Of a stretch of 64,000 nucleotides of DNA, positions 52,401 to 63,854 are shown piece by piece (the stretch's first letter is position 1; each line of letters opens with the position of its first letter). This stretch comes from Planctomycetaceae bacterium (GTDB lineage: Bacteria > Planctomycetota > Phycisphaerae > Sedimentisphaerales > UBA12454). A program made the translations under genes and the position numbers. Where the stretch lies: assembly GCA_021371795.1 (NCBI GenBank), contig JAJFVK010000019.1:124001-188000 (forward strand), in the 5' to 3' direction. A model generated the notes under the pieces. The model worked only from the letters and a program-made list of their open reading frames with translations. It did no database searches and had not been told where the DNA came from.

Positions 52401-52523
52401 ATGAGTTTTCAAATTCTATGCACCAACTGCAAAAAATGGACTCAACACGAAAAGATTAAGGTCGGCAGTCCAAGTGTAGCATTCGGGCCTTTAAATTATC
52501 TCTGTCCTGATTGTTGTCTGTGA
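52401..52523 (+). CDS. 40-aa CxxC peptide, unknown
   Basis: MSFQILCTNCKKWTQHEKIK ... NYLCPDCCL: two CxxC pairs, a possible tiny zinc ribbon. No clear ribosome site. It follows repeat C as the zinc-ribbon gene at 18022 follows repeat A, which may mean both are cargo of similar elements. May be a fragment. Confidence 0.4.
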   Translation: MSFQILCTNCKKWTQHEKIKVGSPSVAFGPLNYLCPDCCL

Positions 52524-52628
52524 TATTGAAAGAATATAGTGCAAGCGATGAATTTAAATATCTCTCTCCCCGGAGATCATCCAAATGGGTCTTCGAGGAA
52601 TGACCGTTCGACTTCCTCGATTATACTC

Positions 52629-52805
52629 GGAACGGGCAAACTCACGGCAGACAGGTTCGGATTTTCTGCTTTTCCGATAACACTTATAGCGATGATAACA
52701 GGTGCTATGATATTACAGTTTGTTGTGCTGAAGCGACTGGCCGGCATAAGGGAATTTGACAAACAGAAGGCTATGGAGGCGGTGGTGCGGGTAGGGGTAG
52801 GGTAG
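52629..52805 (+). pseudogene. Duplicated 3' fragment of the MFS gene
   Basis: From about 52646 the sequence matches 54814-54970 at high identity (GGCAGACAGGTT.GGATTTTCTGC..., then KRLAGI). It encodes LTADRFGFSAFPITLIAMIT, the last helix of the MFS protein. A one-base difference after GGCATA puts the end into another frame compared with the full gene. A non-functional partial duplication. Confidence 0.75.
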
Positions 52806-53513: not shown

Positions 53514-53713
53514 GAGTTCTAATAAGCTCTACCAGATTTGAGGGAATTGACCCGGCAGAGTGGGCTTGTCTTTGCAGGTATTTAAGCCCAATGGATGCGG
53601 TACTGAGAGTGGGACAGGGTGAATTTGCCAAAAACATGAAATCGTGTATATAGAGGCGTATCCTTCCGTTGTAGGATTTTCTTTTTTTATCACAATTTGT
53701 GTTAGAAAGCTAT

Positions 53714-54928
53714 ATGACTCGATTTTTGATTTATCTGTTCCCAGCCGTAGCTGATGTGATACTCGCAGCTACAATGTTTGTATGCAGCAATCGTATTGCT
53801 GATGCCGGCAAGAGCAGGACTGAAGTTGCTATGGTATTCGCTGCATGGGCAGCAGTTTACATCTTTAGCAATCAGATACTTGCCCGGTTTGTTACTTCAC
53901 GCAATGCAGCAGCAATGATGTTTGTCGCAAACTTGCTATTCACTGCCATAGCCGGGGTATTCGTGTTTATTGAAAATATCTGGGCAATATATACCGCTAT
54001 GGCAGTTTTGGCAGTGGCGTCAGCGTTGTTCTTTCTTCCATTTCAAATTTTTATGAAAGCTGTTGAGCCTGACCAGAATCAGGGTGTGGTGCGGTCGGTA
54101 GCTTTTTACACTTTCTCATGGAGTTTGGGCTTTGCGAGTGGCCCTTTTATCGCGGGGTTTATATACCAATGGTTGGGTTGGCAGTGGTGTTTTGCCTTCA
54201 CCGGCCTGATTAGTTTGCTAACAGCCTTTGGGATACAGTTACTGAAGCATCATGCCAAACATCATCATAGTGAGGCTATAGTACCGAATCAGCAATCGTG
54301 CAATGTGGAAGATATCAACTATCACACAATGCCAGACATTGCTTGGCTGCAATGGGCGGTTACCGGAGTTGGATGCCTTGGTTCTTATGCGCTGTTAGCT
54401 TTATTGCCGTCTATTAGTGTATCATTTGCAATACCAAAATCTCAGGTTGGGTCAATGATAGCATTGCTCTATGTTGTTCAAGCGTTGGTTGGTTTGAGTT
54501 TCATGCGCAGCAAAATTTGGATGTTTCGGGTCTTGCCCGTCATTGGTTTTACAGCTTTCGGATTGATCAGCATAACATGTTTTGGTATATCACTACTACC
54601 GATTCTAAATGGAGCAGAACTATTAACTGTGCCATTAAGGACGATAGGATTGTACGTTTCGACTGCCTTTTATGGAGTTTTTTCAGGTTCATTTTTCTTC
54701 GGATTGGTATTTCACTCTCTGGTGCATCCGCATCGCAGCGCAAGATATGTAGCTATTAATGAAATGGTCGTGGGTATCTGTGGCGTGGTGGGACCGATTA
54801 TGGCTGGTACGCTGGCAGACAGGTTTGGATTTTCTGCGTTTCCGATAACACTCATAGCGATGATAACAAGTGCTATGATATTGCAATTCGTTGTGCTGAA
54901 GCGACTGACCGGCATAAAGGGAATTTGA
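53714..54928 (+). CDS. MFS transporter
   Basis: 404 aa from ATG 53714; a GTG 15 nt upstream is possible. About 11-12 membrane helices, with MFS features such as SRTEVAMVFAAWAAVYIFSN, SWSLGFASGPFIAGFIYQWL and GVVGPIMAGTLADRFGFSAF. Substrate unknown. The final residues KRLTGIKGI differ in frame from the duplicated fragment at 52629, so its C-terminus may have been changed by a one-base indel. Confidence 0.82.
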   Translation: MTRFLIYLFPAVADVILAATMFVCSNRIADAGKSRTEVAMVFAAWAAVYIFSNQILARFVTSRNAAAMMFVANLLFTAIAGVFVFIENIWAIYTAMAVLAVASALFFLPFQIFMKAVEPDQNQGVVRSVAFYTFSWSLGFASGPFIAGFIYQWLGWQWCFAFTGLISLLTAFGIQLLKHHAKHHHSEAIVPNQQSCNVEDINYHTMPDIAWLQWAVTGVGCLGSYALLALLPSISVSFAIPKSQVGSMIALLYVVQALVGLSFMRSKIWMFRVLPVIGFTAFGLISITCFGISLLPILNGAELLTVPLRTIGLYVSTAFYGVFSGSFFFGLVFHSLVHPHRSARYVAINEMVVGICGVVGPIMAGTLADRFGFSAFPITLIAMITSAMILQFVVLKRLTGIKGI

Positions 54929-55253: not shown

Positions 55254-56576
55254 ATGAAAGCTGTAATTATACTTTTGGGTTGTTGTATATTCGCAAGCAA
55301 TTTGTGTTTGGCTGCGGAACCAAATGGTATATTAAAAATCGAGGGGAAATATGTTAAACATTTGAGTTTGTATGGTAACGGTAAAGAGGTTTTTAATGAG
55401 CCCAACAAAATTATAAACTTGCCGGTTGGTACTTATTATATTTCTGAAATTAAATTAGAGGGTGATTATGTATGTCATCCTTATAATCTTTCATCCAAAG
55501 AATTACATATCAAAGAGGGACAGACGACTGTCTTGGGAATGGGCGCACCGTTAAATCAAAATGTGAACATTTTAAGACGCGGCAATTCATTAGTTTTAAA
55601 CTATAAACTTCAGGGCATTGGCGGAGAAACATATTTCCCGGAAGTAAGAGGCAACCCTCCAAAGTGTACGGTATATGCCGGTGACGAAGAGATTGCAAAT
55701 TGTAATTTTAAATATGGTTGAGGCGGTACATGTTCGTACTCGTGGCGAGTACCCTTAAAATCATACGGCAATTTTAAAATTATAGCATCAAACGACATTG
55801 GCCAGTTAGGTCCCGGTCAAGGTCTGCCTGTGATGTATGATTGGAAACTTTATTATCATTTTCCCAACCTGATTTTATGGGGCATACTGCTTGCATGTTT
55901 GGTATTGAAGGAAAACCGGAATTTGCGGGCATATCTCGTGCTTTTGCCGATTTTATCTGTATGTGCTCTTTGGGGCATAATACGACAGATTCTTCCGGCG
56001 TTTGTTTCGCAATCAAATATACTTACACACATTGTATCGACGCTTATGCTGTCGGCTGCGATTCTTTGGCTTATGTTGGATAGATTGGCAAGATACAAAT
56101 TAGCTGTGTCATTTTTCCTGTCGATTGTACTGCTTTCGATGGTCGGAATTATCAGTATGTTTGTTTTTGGCGGATTTAGTTTTTCCAGCGATGTGATTTC
56201 AATTTTTATTATGCAGTTTGCATGGGCAGTTTCACTGGTTTGCGGAATTTTAATAGCACGATATTTTTGCCGTAAAGGCTTTAGCGGTAAGGTGTTTTCT
56301 CTGTGGCTGCTTTTGTGGATGATAGTTGTGTTCGACGTTATGATGTTTTTTATAATGTTGGTCACGCTGGCATCCAGCGGATACTTGATGAGGAATCTTT
56401 TTATACTGATTTTTGTGCCGATTCAGGGCACGACAGCAGGTTTGATGGCCTATGTTTTTACATTGCCTTATCTTATTTTGACGTTTAAATGCGAGTTTTA
56501 TAGAAAACGGTTTTTAGCTTGGTTGCGTTTAACCGAACCTGCTAAAGAAAATGATTTTTCAATGCCGTATTCATGA
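55254..56576 (+). CDS. Candidate selenoprotein: secreted domain with UGGTC motif plus ~7 membrane helices
   Basis: Read with TGA 55719-55721 as selenocysteine, this is one 440-aa protein; taken as stop it gives a 155-aa fragment and a separate membrane ORF in the same frame with no stop in the 284 codons that follow. Signal peptide 1-21 (to LAAE), an Ig-like beta domain, then KYG-U156-GGTC160-SYSWRVP. About 45 residues later follow roughly seven membrane helices (LILWGILLACLVL to AYVFTLPYLIL). GAGGA lies 8 nt before ATG 55254. The same motif occurs in the next gene, and a UGG-loop hairpin follows both UGAs. Function not recognised; Sec/Cys suggests a redox role at the outer face of the membrane. 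Confidence 0.82.
55719..55752 (+). promoter_or_regulatory. Selenocysteine UGA and SECIS-like hairpin 1
   Basis: TGA (55719-55721), then 14 nt, then stem GTACTCG (55736-55742), loop TGG (55743-55745), CGAGTAC (55746-55752). Bacterial SECIS hairpins lie just after the UGA within the coding region, with a G in the first positions of a small apical loop; this fits. Confidence 0.8.
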
Positions 56577-56648
56577 TGTTAAATTTTTTTTGAAATAAAC
56601 GGTAAAGTTGTTATTATTGTGTCATAATCAAGTGTTAAGGACTGCAAA

Positions 56649-58046
56649 ATGATTAGCAAGCGGACTTTAGGGATTTGGGCTGTTTTGACTATAGGTGTGG
56701 TTGCATCTGCGTTCGGCAAGGATGAGCAATGGTTAAGCTATCGCTCATCACGTCAGGCCAGAGATATTGTCCAAGGAGTCTGTTCACAGAATCTGGAATT
56801 GGCGTCTGAAAAACCGGAAGGTGTCGAGTTACCTGTGTTTAAAAGTGACCAGCCGCTTTTTGGCAAATTTAAAACACCGATGGCAAAAGACGGTTTTCTG
56901 TGGGTTGCTTTCGACCGGACAAGCAAAAGGGGAGCATATAGCATTCTTTATATCGATTCGAATGCAAATAAATCATTAAAAGATGAAACTGCCGTTACCG
57001 CATATCAAAAAGAACAAAATTATGCCCAATTTGGGTCTATCGCTGTAATTTTTGACAGCAATGATGGGCCAATAACATACCACCTGAATATATACTGTTA
57101 CAGCAATGAAAAAGAAAACCGTGCTTATGTTTCTTCCGGTTGCTGGTATGAGGGGCAAATCACAGTTGATGGCACAAAGTACGAATGTATGCTTGTGGAT
57201 TACGATAGTGACGGGACTTTCAATGATAAGTCTCTAAATCAATGGAAATCAGACCGTCTTCAAATCAAAAAAGGTGAAAAATGGGAATCTGCTTTTGTAG
57301 GGAAATATATTTCCATTGATGATAAACTTTATACGCTGAAAGTTGCCAAAGATGGCGCGTATATCAAAATTGCTAAAGCAGTCGATGTAAATTATGGCAA
57401 TTTTCGTGTTCCTTCGGAAATAGCTGAATTACAGGCCGGCGGCAAGAACGGCAGTTTTGTTTTTCATCCTAAAAATGGTATCTGCAAAATACCGGCAGGG
57501 CATTATCAAATTTTGAACTGGTCTGTTGAGGAAAAGAAAGGCGGCGATATCTGGCAACTTCGTGCAAGCGGGAGTAGTGATAAAGCCCGTTTTTTTGCGA
57601 CAGAAGCAAATGAGCCCAATCTTATGATTGGTCAGCCTGTTGTTTCAAAACTTGACGTCCAGCCAGACGGGAAAAATCATCGAATTAACCATAGGCTTGA
57701 AGGGCGACTTGGTGAAAGTGTTGATATTTTACATAATGGTTCAAGGACTAATGCTCCGAAAGTATCTATCACCAATGCAGACAAAACATACAATAAGACA
57801 TTTAGTCTGGAATATGGTTGAGGTGGTACATGTTCGCTCTCGTGGCGAGAGCCCAAAAAAGTGAGAGGTCCTTTTACTGTAATAGTTCAAATCGCAGGAC
57901 CGTTTAAAATTGATACTGATTCGGTTAAAATTGAAACAAAAATTGCGGCGGCAGACGACAAACCGGCTAAATCATATAACTGGGCATGGGTGTTAGGCAT
58001 AGTCATGGTGGTTGTTTTTATTGCCTTGTTTGTCCGCCGAAAATAA
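56649..58046 (+). CDS. Candidate selenoprotein: secreted, single C-terminal membrane anchor, UGGTC motif
   Basis: 465 aa when TGA 57819-57821 is read as Sec (U391); otherwise the frame stops there and a 61-codon tail with a membrane helix is left orphaned in the same frame. Signal peptide 1-23 (to AFGK). The first ~290 residues contain Gly/Tyr-rich beta strands and two Asp-rich loops (YIDSNANKSLKDE, VDYDSDGTFNDKS) like calcium sites. Residues ~320-420 match the domain of the upstream gene: I-G-P, G...G, then EYG-U-GGTC395-SLSWREP and G-F-V. C-terminal WAWVLGIVMVVVFIALFVRRK anchors it. 72 bp after the previous gene; one operon likely. Confidence 0.82.
57819..57852 (+). promoter_or_regulatory. 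Selenocysteine UGA and SECIS-like hairpin 2
   Basis: TGA, 14 nt, stem GCTCTCG (57836-57842), loop TGG, CGAGAGC (57846-57852). Compared with hairpin 1, two stem pairs changed on both sides (T-A to C-G, A-T to T-A), keeping all seven pairs. Confidence 0.8.
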
Positions 58047-58121: not shown

Positions 58122-60584
58122 ATGTTTACCCGGCAGAGGCTGATTATTTGCGTTATAATTGTATTGACCGGAATATCGTCTGCATTTTGTGATGGGACGG
58201 ATGTTCCACAAAAGATTACATGCTCTGGTAAATTAGTTGATGACGCAAACAAAGCTGTTGCCGGTGTGAAAGTTAAATTGCATATGCTTGTGCCTGATGC
58301 CGGTGGTTTGGAAATAGGGGATGTGAACACAGAGGAACAGATTACCAAAGACGATGGCAGTTTTTCTTTCAGCGTGGAAAAACTTGCAGATAGAACATAT
58401 CGCATGGGAATAGTAGTTGTGCAGAAGGATGGCTTTGCGATTTGCTGGGATAACTGGGATATGCGAAAAGACAAGGTTCTGGCGCTATCATTGGAAAAGC
58501 CGTATAAATTGCAGGGCGTTGTTGTCGATGACGCCAATAAACCTGTTGCAGATGCCGAAGTGCGGATTTCAATGCTGATTGTGGGAGATATTAGCGGCAG
58601 GAATAATGAAGGGCGATACCTGACGGCAGTTAAACATCTTGATATGCTCAAAACAACGACTGATGCTAATGGAATTTTTGTATTCAAAGATATCCCGGCG
58701 GCAGGCAAAGCGGAATTTATGGTTACAAAAGTCGGTCGCGCAACTGTTAGCACGTTCGTCTTTAATCCATCCAACTACAATCCCGGCCAATACACCGTAG
58801 AAAGTAAGGATATAAAAATTATTCAGCCTGTTGAAGCGAAGATTGAAGGTAAAGTTGTCGAGAGCGGTACCGAAAAACCTGTTGGTGGTGTCAAAGTGAC
58901 GTGCGTTGTGGAGCCGCGTGTTGGGGCATCCGGCATTAAACCTGTTGTTTCAAAAGAAGATGGAACATTTACATTTGACGGGCTTGAAGCGAAGACTTAT
59001 ACGGTGCGTGGTGCTTCATCGCAAAAAGGAACTGCGCAATGGGTCATTGAACCTGCAAATGTTACAACAACTGCAGGCCGGACAAATTCTGATGTGGTTA
59101 TTAAAGCGAGTAAGGGTGGTGTGCTTGAAATTATTGTACGCGATAATGAGAATAAAAATATTGCCGGCGTAAATGTGCACATTCGCGCAAAAGACATTCC
59201 GCAGGGACAGGGCGGAATTACAGATTCAAACGGAGTTGCGACAATTCGGTTGGCACCGGGCGAGTATGAATTGCAGGGCACATATAAGGAGGGGTATTCA
59301 TCACCGAAGGACAGACAAACCGCGACAGTGGAAGACGGCAAAACCACACGGCTGGAAATTGAGCTTAAAGGTTCTCCAAAAATTTCCGGAATTGTAACAG
59401 ACGATAAAGGCAAGCCTTTGGCTGACGCAACTGTTCGAATCTTTCCAATGGGTCGGACTCAGAATGTAAAGTCAGACACAACTGGCAAATTTGAAGTTGC
59501 CTGGAACCCTGAACGATGGGGAGGAAATCAGGAAATTCAATATCTCCTTGTTGCTCGCCATATTGGACGCAATCTTGCTGTGGCTGTGGATATTGACGAA
59601 GACACTAAAACTATTGATGTAAAAATGTCGCAGGGGATTGTGATTAAGGGTAAAATTGTTGACGCTAACAGTAAACCACTGGCTGATGCCAAAGTGCATG
59701 TGAATCTTCATATTTCCAACTGGGGAACGTATGTTGATCAGGATGGTATTAAGGCTGATGCGCAGGGCATGTATGAATATAAGGCTTTGCCGGACGAGCA
59801 GAGATATAGCGTTTCCGCACAAGCTGACGGTTATGGCCAAAGTTATGCTGAAGTACTGACGGAAGATGCTGTTGACGGCCTTGTTGAGATTGAGCCGATG
59901 ATATTAAAATTGGCTGTGATGAGTGTTTCCGGTGTTGTTAAAGACGGCAATGATAAACCTGTTGCGGGCGTAGATGTGGGCGTGTCCGGACAGGGGCAGC
60001 AGAATCGCAGGGCTGTTACAGATGCAAACGGGAATTTTACAATTGATAAACTTTGCGAAGGTCAAGTGTATATCTATGCGAATTATAATAAAGGCAATTC
60101 ATATTTATATGGATATGCAAATGTCGAGTCTGGAGATAAGGAAATTGAGTTGATAATCGGGCAGCAGGGTGATGGTGGCAGGTCTGTTGAAAAACAACCA
60201 TCATCGCTCAAAGGCAAACCTCTGCCGGATGTCAATTCTATTGGTGTTAAGTTCGATGCCAATGATGTGAAAGATAAAGCAGTCTTGCTTTGTTTTGTAG
60301 ATATGAATCAACGGCCCAGCAGACATTGTTTCAAAGAGCTTATGAACAAACACAGTGAGCTTGAACAAAAAGGCATTAAGATTATAGTTATACAAATTGG
60401 TAATGCAGATGTTGATGCGAATCAGCCATTTATAAAAGGCCAAATTCCAAATGATGAAAAAGATCTTTTTGGATGGGGCGTAAAATCATTGCCGTGGCTT
60501 GTTTTAACTGATAAGCAGCACAAAATTATTGCTGACGGTTTTTCCGTTGACGAGATTGATGCAAAGCTTACAGAGCAAAAATAA
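58122..60584 (+). CDS. Secreted protein of CarboxypepD-regulatory-like repeats with C-terminal thioredoxin fold
   Basis: 820 aa. Signal peptide to AFCDG. Six or so repeats of a beta-sandwich (carboxypeptidase regulatory-like/Cna-B-like), each with GKVVDANSKPLADAKV-type starts and T(D)ANGNF..DKL ends. The last ~125 residues are thioredoxin/peroxiredoxin-like (GKPLPDVNSIGVKF, VLLCFVDMNQRPSRHCFKEL, IKIIVIQIGNADVD, LPWLVLTDKQHKIIADGF). In place of a CxxC it has RPSRHC, leaving one Cys. 75 bp downstream of the second selenoprotein gene and probably co-transcribed; could be its redox partner. Confidence 0.82.
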   Translation: MFTRQRLIICVIIVLTGISSAFCDGTDVPQKITCSGKLVDDANKAVAGVKVKLHMLVPDAGGLEIGDVNTEEQITKDDGSFSFSVEKLADRTYRMGIVVVQKDGFAICWDNWDMRKDKVLALSLEKPYKLQGVVVDDANKPVADAEVRISMLIVGDISGRNNEGRYLTAVKHLDMLKTTTDANGIFVFKDIPAAGKAEFMVTKVGRATVSTFVFNPSNYNPGQYTVESKDIKIIQPVEAKIEGKVVESGTEKPVGGVKVTCVVEPRVGASGIKPVVSKEDGTFTFDGLEAKTYTVRGASSQKGTAQWVIEPANVTTTAGRTNSDVVIKASKGGVLEIIVRDNENKNIAGVNVHIRAKDIPQGQGGITDSNGVATIRLAPGEYELQGTYKEGYSSPKDRQTATVEDGKTTRLEIELKGSPKISGIVTDDKGKPLADATVRIFPMGRTQNVKSDTTGKFEVAWNPERWGGNQEIQYLLVARHIGRNLAVAVDIDEDTKTIDVKMSQGIVIKGKIVDANSKPLADAKVHVNLHISNWGTYVDQDGIKADAQGMYEYKALPDEQRYSVSAQADGYGQSYAEVLTEDAVDGLVEIEPMILKLAVMSVSGVVKDGNDKPVAGVDVGVSGQGQQNRRAVTDANGNFTIDKLCEGQVYIYANYNKGNSYLYGYANVESGDKEIELIIGQQGDGGRSVEKQPSSLKGKPLPDVNSIGVKFDANDVKDKAVLLCFVDMNQRPSRHCFKELMNKHSELEQKGIKIIVIQIGNADVDANQPFIKGQIPNDEKDLFGWGVKSLPWLVLTDKQHKIIADGFSVDEIDAKLTEQK

Positions 60585-60587
60585 GTC

Positions 60588-61415
60588 CTAATTTGATTTA
60601 TGCTTTTTAAAAACAGAACCTATGCTAAGTGCTTTTGGTTTGCAGCTTGTACAGTCAAGACAACGAATACAGTTAGTATGGTTAGGTTGCAGATTGGGTT
60701 TTACACCAATTTTGCAGCTTGTATGACATATATTGCAATTTGTACAAACGGCTGGGTCTAATTTAAGATGGAATACTGAAAATTTATTGAATAACCCGAA
60801 AATTGCCCCTAATGGACATAGTTTGCACCAGAAACGATTGACAAATATCATCCCGGTCAATGTAACAAGTAAAACTGTAATCTTAAGTGTGTTTGGAAAA
60901 ATAATTTTTTGTCCCGCGGCAGCCTGCGAGAGCATATTAGGTACCGCTCCTTCAAGTGCACCGGCCGGGCAAACTTTGCAAAATGTGAGCGGATGATTTT
61001 CGCCCCAGAAAAATGGGACAGCCAGCACGAGTCCTAAAAGTACTAAATAACGTATGCTGCCAAACCATTGCGGCAGATTAAATTTGCGAACAGGAATTTT
61101 AGCTGCCATATCCTGCAAAAGCCCGAACGGACAGATATACCCGCAGACAAAACTTCCAAGAATCGCGCCAACTAATATCAGTGTTCCTATTGCCATAAAA
61201 GGAAACAAATGCAAGGCGCTGAAATTTACAAGTATTCCAACAGGACAAGCGAATGTTGCTAATGGGCAGGCATAACAATGGAATACGGTTCCGCAGACGT
61301 TGTGCATCCTAAGAGCCATCGGGTCCAGCCAGATTAAGAGAAACGCTGTTTGTATCCAGATTCGACTGGCGGTTAATTTTTCAATGAATGAAGTTTTTTT
61401 GGTCATGGCCACCAT
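60588..61415 (-). CDS. NapH-like membrane polyferredoxin (4Fe-4S)
   Basis: 275 aa. About 5-6 membrane helices with cysteine motifs CYACPLATFACPVG, CGYICPFGLLQD, CKVCPAGALEG and CKLCPLGAIFGLFN, followed by two 4Fe-4S sites CTNCNICHTSC and CIRCLDCTSCKPKAL. This is the NapH/CcoG/MauN-type quinol-linked electron-transfer family. Its first codons (ATG 61415; a second ATG at 61406) lie inside the SECIS-like hairpin of the upstream small gene, so the two are coupled. Likely passes electrons across the membrane to the CxxU protein or another partner. Confidence 0.88.
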   Translation of the reverse strand: MVAMTKKTSFIEKLTASRIWIQTAFLLIWLDPMALRMHNVCGTVFHCYACPLATFACPVGILVNFSALHLFPFMAIGTLILVGAILGSFVCGYICPFGLLQDMAAKIPVRKFNLPQWFGSIRYLVLLGLVLAVPFFWGENHPLTFCKVCPAGALEGAVPNMLSQAAAGQKIIFPNTLKITVLLVTLTGMIFVNRFWCKLCPLGAIFGLFNKFSVFHLKLDPAVCTNCNICHTSCKIGVKPNLQPNHTNCIRCLDCTSCKPKALSIGSVFKKHKSN

Positions 61416-61433
61416 AACCCTTTACTTAACTCA
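61401..61433 (-). promoter_or_regulatory. Selenocysteine UGA and SECIS-like hairpin 3
   Basis: On the minus strand TGA (61433-61431) is followed after 11 nt by stem GGTTATGG, loop TGG (61411-61409), CCATGACC: eight pairs with one T-G. Loop identity and distance match the two hairpins at 55.7 and 57.8 kb. Confidence 0.7.
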
Positions 61434-61709
61434 AGTAGGGCACAAGGACGCAGGTTTGTTATTGATGTCATACGTACGCTGTATGCCGCCTGAATCCAGT
61501 TTAACAAGTCCGCCTAAAGTAACATCAAATATCGCCTGCGATTCTGAAATATACAAGACAGGCTGATATGTTTTAGGGAGCTTTGTCATCTTTTCTAACG
61601 GCAGGTTTTGTATTTTTAAAGTGCGAAACAAGCCGATATACAGCAAAACTCCCGCTGCCACCAGCAGAGTGATAGTGACGTATCGTTTTATCTTATTTTC
61701 GTTAGCCAT
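61422..61709 (-). CDS. Candidate selenoprotein: small membrane protein ending CPTU-VK
   Basis: 95 aa when TGA 61433-61431 is read as Sec; 92 aa if it is a stop. Start at ATG 61709 (MANENKIKRY), since the frame above it is antisense tRNA-Sec. One N-terminal membrane helix (YVTITLLVAAGVLLYIGLF), then ~60 residues outside. The C-terminus is SLC90-PT-U93-VK followed by TAA, giving a CxxU redox pair five residues from the end. Only 12 nt after tRNA-Sec and directly before the polyferredoxin gene. Family not recognised. Confidence 0.72.
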
Positions 61710-61720
61710 AATTTTAAAAA

Positions 61721-61816
61721 TGGCGGAGGCGAATGGGAATCGAACCCACCCGAGACGCGTTCGCGCCTCGCGCTGGTTTTGAAGACCAGGAGCGCCACCA
61801 GACACATGTCACCTCC
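61721..61816 (-). tRNA. selC: tRNA-Sec (anticodon TCA)
   Basis: 96 nt with encoded CCA. 8-bp acceptor GGAGGTGA/TCGCCTCC, discriminator G, anticodon stem CTGGT/ACCAG with loop CTTCAAA (anticodon TCA), and a long variable arm (CGAGGCGCG...CGCGTCTCG). T arm GTGGGTTCGATTCCCAT. Acceptor length, long extra arm and UCA anticodon together identify the selenocysteine tRNA. Confidence 0.95.
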
Positions 61817-61855: not shown

Positions 61856-63052
61856 TCACTTCTTTTCTAAAAACACTTTACCAGTTCCTTTGCCAATTAT
61901 CCTGCCGATAATAGCGGCTTCTTCTATTTTCGCTTTATGCAGTTTTCCCAATAGTTTTTCTGCTTTGGCTTGCGGCAGGCAAATCAATAATCCTCCGGAT
62001 GTCTGGGCATCAAAGCAGATATCGGCCATTGGCCTTGTTACGCCTTTTCCCGTTACTATACGATGGCCGGAAGATTCCCTATTGCGTTCGACCGTACCTG
62101 GAACAATGTCCGCGTTAACAGCCTCCAAAACGCCGGGGAAAAGAGGAATGGCGTCAAACAATATTTCCGCGTTTACTTTGCTCAATCCTGCCATTTCGCC
62201 TAAATGTCCCATAAGACTGAAACCCGTTACGTCAGTGCAGGCATGTACGTCGAATTCCTGCATTAACTCGGCGGCTTTTTTGTTCAGAGTTGCCATCGAA
62301 TTTGAAATAGCCTTAACGCTTTTTGCAGACGCTTTATCAATCTGTGAAGCGAACGCGATTATTCCTGTGCCCAGTGGTTTTGTGAGTATGAGGACGTCGC
62401 CTGATTTTGCATTTGCATTTGTAAGAATTTTTTTGGGATTAATTAATCCGGTTACCGCAAAACCGGCTTTTATCTGCGGGTCGTTAATGCTGTGTCCGCC
62501 TATGACGGGCACCTCTGCTTCTATCATTTTGTCTATTCCGCCTCGAAGGATATCACGCATTATTGAGTCCTTGAGTTCTTTGCATGGAAATCCGATTATT
62601 GACAAGGCGGTGATTGGTCTGCCTCCCATTGCATATACGTCGCTAACTGAATTAGCAGCGGCAACCTGACCAAACACGTACGGGTCGTCAACAGAAGGTG
62701 TGAAAACATCAACTGTTTGAACCAAAGCTGTGTCTTTGGAAATTTTATAAACTCCTGCGTCGTCACCCGCGGCAGCACCAACCAGCACATTCGGATGATT
62801 GAAAGAAGGCAGTCCTCGCAAAACATTTTTCAAGAATTTCTGGTCTATTTTAGAAGCACAACCGGCTTTTTCGACCAGTTTTGTAAGCTGCACTTTTTTT
62901 GTTTTTGCGTCTTCAAGTCGTTCTCCTGCACACAGGCAAACATTTTTCCCCTGAAATATGTCGCACGGACACGGTTTTTTAGGGTCGCATACACAATGGC
63001 CAAGCCGCATAGAACGGCCCATAATCAATTTTCTTTTTTCGATGTTAATCAC
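61856..63052 (-). CDS. selD: Selenide, water dikinase (selenophosphate synthetase)
   Basis: 398 aa from GTG 63052, preferred because AAAGGAG lies 6 nt upstream and GTGATTAA overlaps the upstream stop; an ATG at 63073 is also in frame. It makes selenophosphate from selenide and ATP. Catalytic C65 and K68 in AGCASKID, glycine-rich VGAAAGDDAGVY, TVDVFTPSVDDPYVFGQVAA, GGHSINDPQ, DVTGFSLMGHLGEM and DAQTSGGLLI. About 45 extra N-terminal residues hold six Cys (HCVC, CPC, CLC). The catalytic position is Cys, not Sec. Confidence 0.95.
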   Translation of the reverse strand: MINIEKRKLIMGRSMRLGHCVCDPKKPCPCDIFQGKNVCLCAGERLEDAKTKKVQLTKLVEKAGCASKIDQKFLKNVLRGLPSFNHPNVLVGAAAGDDAGVYKISKDTALVQTVDVFTPSVDDPYVFGQVAAANSVSDVYAMGGRPITALSIIGFPCKELKDSIMRDILRGGIDKMIEAEVPVIGGHSINDPQIKAGFAVTGLINPKKILTNANAKSGDVLILTKPLGTGIIAFASQIDKASAKSVKAISNSMATLNKKAAELMQEFDVHACTDVTGFSLMGHLGEMAGLSKVNAEILFDAIPLFPGVLEAVNADIVPGTVERNRESSGHRIVTGKGVTRPMADICFDAQTSGGLLICLPQAKAEKLLGKLHKAKIEEAAIIGRIIGKGTGKVFLEKK

Positions 63053-63854
63053 ATTCAACTCCTTTGATTTCATGTTGCTGTTTAAAATATTTAATTGCGA
63101 GAATCGCTGCGCCGATTGCGCCGGTCAATTGCGGCTGCGGCGATATTTCAACTGGTCTTTCAAAAACTTTCCGGAGGGCGGTATCCATTCCATGAATCAT
63201 AGCTACACCGCCTGTAAAAATAATTTCAGTCGGCAAATTTCGTCCGGCCATACTCAAGATTCGCGATGCGATAGCGTTTTGTACTCCGCAGACGATATCG
63301 GCAGGGGAGCGTTGTTCTGCCATTAATCCCACGATTTCTGTTTCAGCGAAAACGACACACATACTGCTGATTGAGGCGGGCTGTTTGCTTTTTTTTGCCA
63401 TCATACCCAGCGCATTAAGCAGTACAGATAATTTTTTCGCGACCATTTCCAAAAAGCATCCTGTTCCGGCTGCGCAGCGGTCGTTCATTGCGAAGTCTTC
63501 AATACTGCCGCTTTCGTTCATCCGAATGAATTTGCTGTCCTGCCCGCCAATGTCTATAATCGCACGCGCATCGGGAACAAAATATTTTACTCCGGTCGCG
63601 TGGCAGGTGATTTCGGTAATTGCCTTATCGGCGAAGCTTATTGCATTTCGGCCATAACCGGTTGCGATTGTCGCGGCAACTTCGCTGTGAGATATGCCGT
63701 TATTTTTCAGTGTATTCTCAAAAAGTTCTCTTGCGAGATTTTCCTGTGCCACTCCCTGATCAATTACGCCTGTTGCGATAATTTTAGAATTATCTGAACG
63801 CATCAATGCGATTTTGATTGCTCGTGAGCCTGCGTCTATGCCGGCACAAATCAT
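63045..63854 (-). CDS. 2-hydroxyacyl-CoA dehydratase activase (HgdC/BadF-type ATPase)
   Basis: 269 aa ASKHA-fold ATPase. GIDAGSRAIKIAL and IIDIGGQDSKFIRM are nucleotide-binding elements; the bridging [4Fe-4S] ligands are Cys in NDRCAAGTGCFLE and in SSMCVVFAETEI. It reduces its partner dehydratase/reductase with ATP hydrolysis. ATGA overlap with the partner subunit gene upstream and 8-nt overlap with selD downstream, so the three are one operon. YjiL-like members near selenium genes have unknown substrates. Confidence 0.92.
   Translation of the reverse strand: MICAGIDAGSRAIKIALMRSDNSKIIATGVIDQGVAQENLARELFENTLKNNGISHSEVAATIATGYGRNAISFADKAITEITCHATGVKYFVPDARAIIDIGGQDSKFIRMNESGSIEDFAMNDRCAAGTGCFLEMVAKKLSVLLNALGMMAKKSKQPASISSMCVVFAETEIVGLMAEQRSPADIVCGVQNAIASRILSMAGRNLPTEIIFTGGVAMIHGMDTALRKVFERPVEISPQPQLTGAIGAAILAIKYFKQQHEIKGVECD

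Follow-up and report, generated by a model that had tools for sequence, protein, structure and literature searches.

Two predicted selenoprotein families that appear new, one with selenocysteine in an Ig-like domain, encoded beside the sel genes of a planctomycetal bacterium

DsbD carries an exported Ig-like domain, nDsbD, which bears a redox residue and is fused to a membrane electron conduit. For prokaryotic selenoproteins, a 2026 catalogue lists 119 families and subfamilies, which rely on a UGA codon with a bSECIS hairpin and on SelA, SelB, SelC and SelD, and usually contain one Sec; several co-operonic selenoproteins are encoded in the SAO or Tso operons (PMC13188914). A bSECIS hairpin is expected to have a loop of 3-9 nt with a G in the first two positions and a stem of 4-16 bp, to lie 16-37 nt from the UGA, and to have a minimum free energy (MFE) of at most -7.5 (PMC13188914). 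A deep-learning finder of selenoprotein genes retains a candidate only if a known Sec homologue, or else several Cys homologues, can be found for it (PMC12013277). The locus described here likewise combines UGA codons, hairpins of the bSECIS type and the sel genes, and, as in the SAO or Tso operons, several predicted selenoproteins are encoded together. The decoding chemistry itself is already known; the two selenoprotein families, their fold setting and the module that they form appear to be new within what was searched.

Genes A and B are consecutive in the window, that is, the whole 64,000-nt stretch of DNA that was analysed (Table 1). Each contains one in-frame UGA inside a common domain of ~110 aa with the motif YG-U-GGTC, and the two copies of this domain are homologous (hhalign, 99.5%). 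The DNA context of both codons is YG-TGA-GG[C/T]GGTACATGTTCG, also given as YG-TGA-GGNGGTACATGTTCG. Past the TGA, the frame remains open for 284 codons in A and 74 codons in B, and comparison with the congener G156 gives dN/dS of 0.19-0.30 both upstream and downstream of the UGA in the two genes; by this measure, the coding frame beyond the UGA is evidently under purifying selection. Elsewhere in the window UGA is a normal stop, and gene A itself is closed by an ordinary TGA (56574-56576) with no such hairpin 3' of it, which provides an internal contrast. The original prediction had proposed Sec recoding in two consecutive UGA genes with open downstream frames, membrane helices at the gene ends and hairpins 14 nt after the TGA. 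All of this held on re-reading, with the same positions, contexts and codon counts, and the helices proved to be seven predicted TM segments after the Sec domain in A and one at the C-terminus of B. The domain common to A and B, the copy number of the family, the second selenoprotein gene and the family member between selA and selB had escaped that prediction.

Table 1. Features of the locus, with positions in the window
Feature	Position	Strand	Evidence
Gene A, predicted 440-aa selenoprotein, Sec = residue 156; N-terminal signal-like segment, Sec-containing Ig-like domain, 7 predicted TM helices	55254..56576	+	ORF reading, orthologues, dN/dS
Predicted Sec UGA codon, gene A	55719..55721	+	sequence, homologue alignment
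Predicted SECIS hairpin of A, GTACTCG-TGG-CGAGTAC, 14 nt past UGA; arms 55736-55742/55746-55752	55736..55752	+	folding, covariation
Gene B, predicted 465-aa selenoprotein, Sec = residue 391; signal-like segment, beta domains with DxDxDG-like motifs, C-terminal Sec Ig-like domain, one TM helix	56649..58046	+	ORF reading, dN/dS
Predicted Sec UGA codon, gene B	57819..57821	+	sequence, homologue alignment
Predicted SECIS hairpin of B, GCTCTCG-TGG-CGAGAGC, 14 nt past UGA; arms 57836-57842/57846-57852	57836..57852	+	folding, covariation
Gene C, CarboxypepD_reg repeats and degenerate thioredoxin-like C-terminal domain	58122..60584	+	
NapH/MauN-like membrane protein with Fe-S motifs, conserved neighbour	60588..61415	-	
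Predicted SECIS hairpin of CPTU, overlapping the NapH-like start	61401..61419	-	folding, covariation
CPTU gene, predicted 95-aa small membrane selenoprotein ending C-P-T-U-V-K, Sec = residue 93	61422..61709	-	
Predicted Sec UGA codon, CPTU gene	61431..61433	-	sequence, homologues
tRNA-Sec (selC)	61721..61816	-	tRNA search; Rfam
selD, Cys form	about 61856..63052	-	TIGR00476, 369 bits; GTG start and stop by eye

The stems of A and B, both of 7 bp with a TGG loop, differ by two compensatory pair changes, and the encoded residues change from Y to L and from V to E, as originally noted. Folded alone, the hairpins reach -8.3 (A) and -10.5 (B) kcal/mol, and with a UGG loop, 7 bp and a distance of 21 nt they fall within the bSECIS limits. 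When a longer stretch of gene A is folded, the minimum-energy fold is another structure, so that covariation, not energy, is the evidence for the hairpin. Across 128 distinct UGA sites, 92% of the stem cells are paired, compared to 22-57% when the partners are slid by 1-3 nt, and perfect 7-bp stems are found at 89 of these sites vs 1.2 expected under synonymous recoding of the codons. An alignment of 53 distinct sequences, a hand-thinned subset of the 128 (the omitted ones include two divergent poor pairers), contains 72 cells with changes on both sides, vs 17 in shuffled and at most 24 in slid alignments, and each of the seven stem pairs has changed on both sides at least once. Covariance folding, proposed earlier as a check, bears the hairpin out: RNAalifold recovers the stem unprompted, with six pairs and a five-base loop. 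In a search of Rfam with this stretch, tRNA-Sec was the sole match, and no SECIS family was found. The variants TCG-TGG-CGA, ACG-TGG-CGT and CGG-TGG-CCG encode SWR, TWR and RWP, respectively; the residues vary in such a way that the pairing is kept, and the stem drives change in the protein.

The 2.85-Mb genome contains the exact DNA pattern two times and no copy of its reversed control, hence the pattern is not due to chance. A stop-tolerant protein search detected the A/B family in 60 of the 161 genomes of the order, nearly all matches having exactly one TGA at this position, and in 392 genomes of the phylum, searched with a profile, there were 38 matches, with TGA in all but one. The scan of 84,980 species genomes with the DNA pattern, which demanded the TGG loop and so partly imposed the conservation of the loop (stem pairing was not imposed), gave at least 123 matches, 79 of them with at least five paired stem bases. 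Among the matches listed, these 79 lie mostly in long open frames; the other 44 of the 123, judged chance or unpaired, are mostly closed frames with unpaired stems, and such closed-frame, unpaired matches in other bacteria are an internal control. Planctomycetota, Verrucomicrobiota, Lentisphaerota, Sumerlaeota, Hydrogenedentota, Omnitrophota and Riflebacteria are represented among the matches listed. Genomes contain up to about 11 matches each, and a further member (L038:6939-7628; motif KYG-U-SGNCRYSWRVP) is encoded between selA and selB. In locus L174 (genome G076, near selB), either each frame holds two Sec domains or neighbouring genes are read as one frame.

In the alignment of 156 profile-chosen sites, 150 have TGA, five Cys and one Arg, a count that leans to TGA given that many loci were recruited by the UGA pattern, unlike the searches of the 161 and 392 genomes. 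The frames continue in the homologues, where a consistent stop would have spoken against recoding. The search for Cys homologues suggested in the original prediction turned up five, in G093, G095, G097, G099 and G015, none of which has selB over the cut-off. The first four share a genus with G096, where selB is found together with the UGA form; in these four the stem is gone. A paralogue in L159, in which AGA (Arg) replaces the UGA and most of the stem is kept, looks as a decaying selenoprotein gene would, with its stem still partly intact. A motif scan of the 84,980 genomes for the Cys form retrieved nine stretches, none of them a relative. The family thus appears to be nearly Cys-free, Cys homologues being rare among the sequences compared. 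A Cys at +4 from the Sec is usual; it is missing in some distant members, so a U-Cys pair cannot account for all of the chemistry.

The tRNA-Sec and selD genes, expected nearby from the first reading, are present, and selA and selB, the absence of which would have told against Sec, lie beyond the window end on this contig, at 4.8 and 7.7 kb. Within the order, selB was detected in 42 of the 52 genomes with UGA members vs 2 of the 109 without (161 genomes; p 1e-26); this statistic ignores phylogeny, and the one-genus contrast between G096 and G093, G095, G097 and G099 bears it out. UGA members but no selB over the cut-off were found in 10 genomes, most of them incomplete, although two, G074 (93%) and G081 (90%), are not very incomplete. 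In 24 of the 44 selB genomes, the distance from selB to a family member is 5 kb or less. Of all selenoproteins, Fdh-alpha has the most frequent link with the Sec trait; the model TIGR01591 has no match in this genome. The stretch between selD and selA (window 63045-63854 and L038:1158-4109) encodes an acyl-CoA dehydratase activase, two 2-hydroxyglutaryl-CoA dehydratase D-like (HGD-D) proteins and a methyltransferase-like protein (LCCCTGAG), and HGD-D genes adjoin A/B family members in other loci as well; this gene set is a possible further selenium-linked system.

The second gene, CPTU, encodes a small protein with one TM segment and lies between tRNA-Sec, directly upstream, and the NapH-like gene, directly downstream. 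Its 3' end reads ASLCPT-TGA-GTT-AAG-TAA, followed by the hairpin GGTTATGG-TGG-CCATGACC. The position directly after tRNA-Sec recurs in L061, L087, L122 and L124. At 13 public-set sites, upstream of NapH-like genes in other phyla, the sequence is always CPT-TGA, one or two codons and a stop, and the 30 loci of the order all have C-[PSAL]-T-TGA, two codons and a stop; TGA is thus present at all 43 sites, with some genomes counted twice. Hairpin positions are paired at 21-30 of the 30 sites, with many pair types; the stems have 7-8 bp in most cases and 5-6 in some, the distance from UGA to the loop is mostly 19-23 nt, and the hairpins exceed shuffled sequence (117 vs 57, sd 6). The family is represented in 41 of the 161 genomes, 40 of which also have the A/B family (p 7e-26) and 34 selB. 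The CPTU family is unrelated to the A/B family; with its conserved UGA, SECIS hairpin and accompanying sel genes, it is, on comparative grounds, a predicted selenoprotein family.

Among the loci examined, gene C is present in 31, and in many genomes it is found downstream of B; the Cys of its thioredoxin-like domain (RPSRxC) is not conserved. The NapH-like gene is present in 13 loci, and in four of them (L045, L060, L071, L149) it shares the strand of A and overlaps or adjoins that gene; in the window, it is on the strand opposite A-B-C. Its product matches Fer4_5 above the Pfam cut-off; with the NapH/MauN family model (TIGR02163), it scores 45.5 bits vs the NapH cut-off of 213. In a different part of the window, the transporter gene at 53699-54928 seems to have a partial, degenerate duplicate of its 3' end at about 52500-52800.

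Neither the A/B nor the CPTU family matches Pfam or NCBIfam (June 2026), and neither is described in the literature searched, with subscription papers, supplements and preprints outside reach. Among the 119 catalogued families, there is none in which an Ig-like domain bears YG-U-GGTC or in which a protein with a C-x-T-U tail is encoded next to a NapH-like gene. The nearest in motif is hypothetical protein DG (NF049953), with the listed GUxG compatible with G-U-G-G; identity with it was rejected, as its model matches neither A, B nor their homologues. A search of this genome with NF049953 was also without a match, but the controls of that search were silent too. The UXX-star proteins (NF041114, NF041211) have, by name, a Sec two residues before the stop, like most CPTU members; no NCBIfam match of CPTU to either model was found at E up to 1.

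Predicted structures were obtained for A (pLDDT 86, 17 sequences; the model has one spurious extra residue because the final stop was read through) and B (pLDDT 90, 28 sequences). In these models, the Sec domain would be an Ig/FN3/macroglobulin-like sandwich, with Z of 8-10, which may reflect no more than a common arrangement, and Sec is located in a loop preceding a strand. The domain is inferred to be exported and extracytoplasmic; in A it would be anchored on a 7-TM protein, and in B on a chain of secreted type that has one TM helix. Homology to nDsbD (PF11412) was considered and rejected, the probability in profile comparison being 3.7%; in the fold comparison, the structural matches listed were Ig/FN3-like only (Z 8-10). 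The 7TM part of A differs from DsbD in having no DsbD match in Pfam, and the genome encodes a full DsbD of its own. Replacement of DsbD by the family, suggested by an anti-correlation with PF11412 (DsbD_N), was dropped, since the divergent N domain of this genome's own full DsbD is missed by the model and the anti-correlation may be a detection artefact.

Taken as a whole, the evidence makes it very probable that A, B and CPTU are selenoproteins. Insertion of Sec at the UGA of A and B we regard as nearly certain, the codon being presumably decoded by tRNA-Sec and SelB with guidance from the hairpin 14 nt downstream; covariation, purifying selection, the complete selA/B/C/D set, co-occurrence with selB and the Cys homologues all agree. 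As to function, an extracytoplasmic selenol/thiol electron relay is put forward tentatively, at somewhat less than an even chance, from the co-occurrence of the CPTU and A/B families and their linkage to the NapH-like Fe-S gene. The NapH-like Fe-S protein would pass electrons across the membrane to CPTU, whose C-x-T-U tail would take them up and reduce the Sec residues in A and B, often accompanied by Cys at +4; the Sec domains of A and B would then serve an extracytoplasmic acceptor. The degenerate thioredoxin-like part of gene C counts against the relay, as does the opposite strand of the NapH-like gene in the window.

A sensor or a structural envelope protein, with A resembling a 7TM receptor and Sec detecting oxidants or metals, is rather unlikely, if not far behind. 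The Ig/FN3-like Sec domain, the DxDxDG motifs of B homologues and a weak match to 7TMR-DISM_7TM in one of 17 A homologues (E 0.0014) would suit such a role, but A revealed no cytoplasmic signalling domain, and the NapH-like linkage and near-obligatory co-occurrence with CxTU suggest electron flow. We find it improbable that the module handles selenium itself, by uptake, storage or reduction of Se compounds: the positions between selA and selB, after tRNA-Sec and no more than 5 kb from selB (24 of 44 genomes) fit this function, whereas a count reaching about 11 matches in a genome, many of them remote from sel genes, would be unusual for selenium supply, and Cys versions are retained in genomes with no selB found.

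Readings in which no Sec is inserted fare much worse. The evidence for Sec being comparative, it could be conceived that the UGA is read as Trp, Gly or Cys by a near-cognate tRNA, or under an altered code, and that the hairpin is a generic readthrough signal. This is highly implausible in a genome that has selA, selB, selD and tRNA-Sec and also uses UGA as a normal stop, given that five of the six non-UGA homologues have Cys, and none Trp or Gly, and that the bSECIS-type loop recurs in the unrelated CPTU gene. It is hardly credible that the UGA of A and B is a plain stop (as UGA is elsewhere in the window, and as standard annotation, which would split both genes, would take it), with A and B being pseudogenes or split genes and the downstream similarity a relic: the downstream dN/dS is 0.19-0.30, UGA stands in open frames at 150 of 156 aligned sites, the hairpin covaries, and the family co-occurs with selB.

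With two uncatalogued families, which are spread over several phyla and reach many copies in a genome, environmental selenoproteomes would seem to be undercounted. Standard annotation splits UGA genes of this kind, and the finder that requires a Sec homologue or several Cys homologues (PMC12013277) would tend to discard the A/B family because it is nearly Cys-free; this requirement may explain why the family was missed earlier. Sec in an Ig-like fold would be a departure from the usual thioredoxin-like setting, and the stem-coupled changes among SWR, TWR and RWP show that an RNA element shapes the active loop of the protein. If the relay exists, which we consider possible, though the odds are slightly against it, it would be a selenium-based relay in the envelope, with Ig-fold selenoproteins that reach ~10 copies per genome in Planctomycetota and are found in several other phyla as well.
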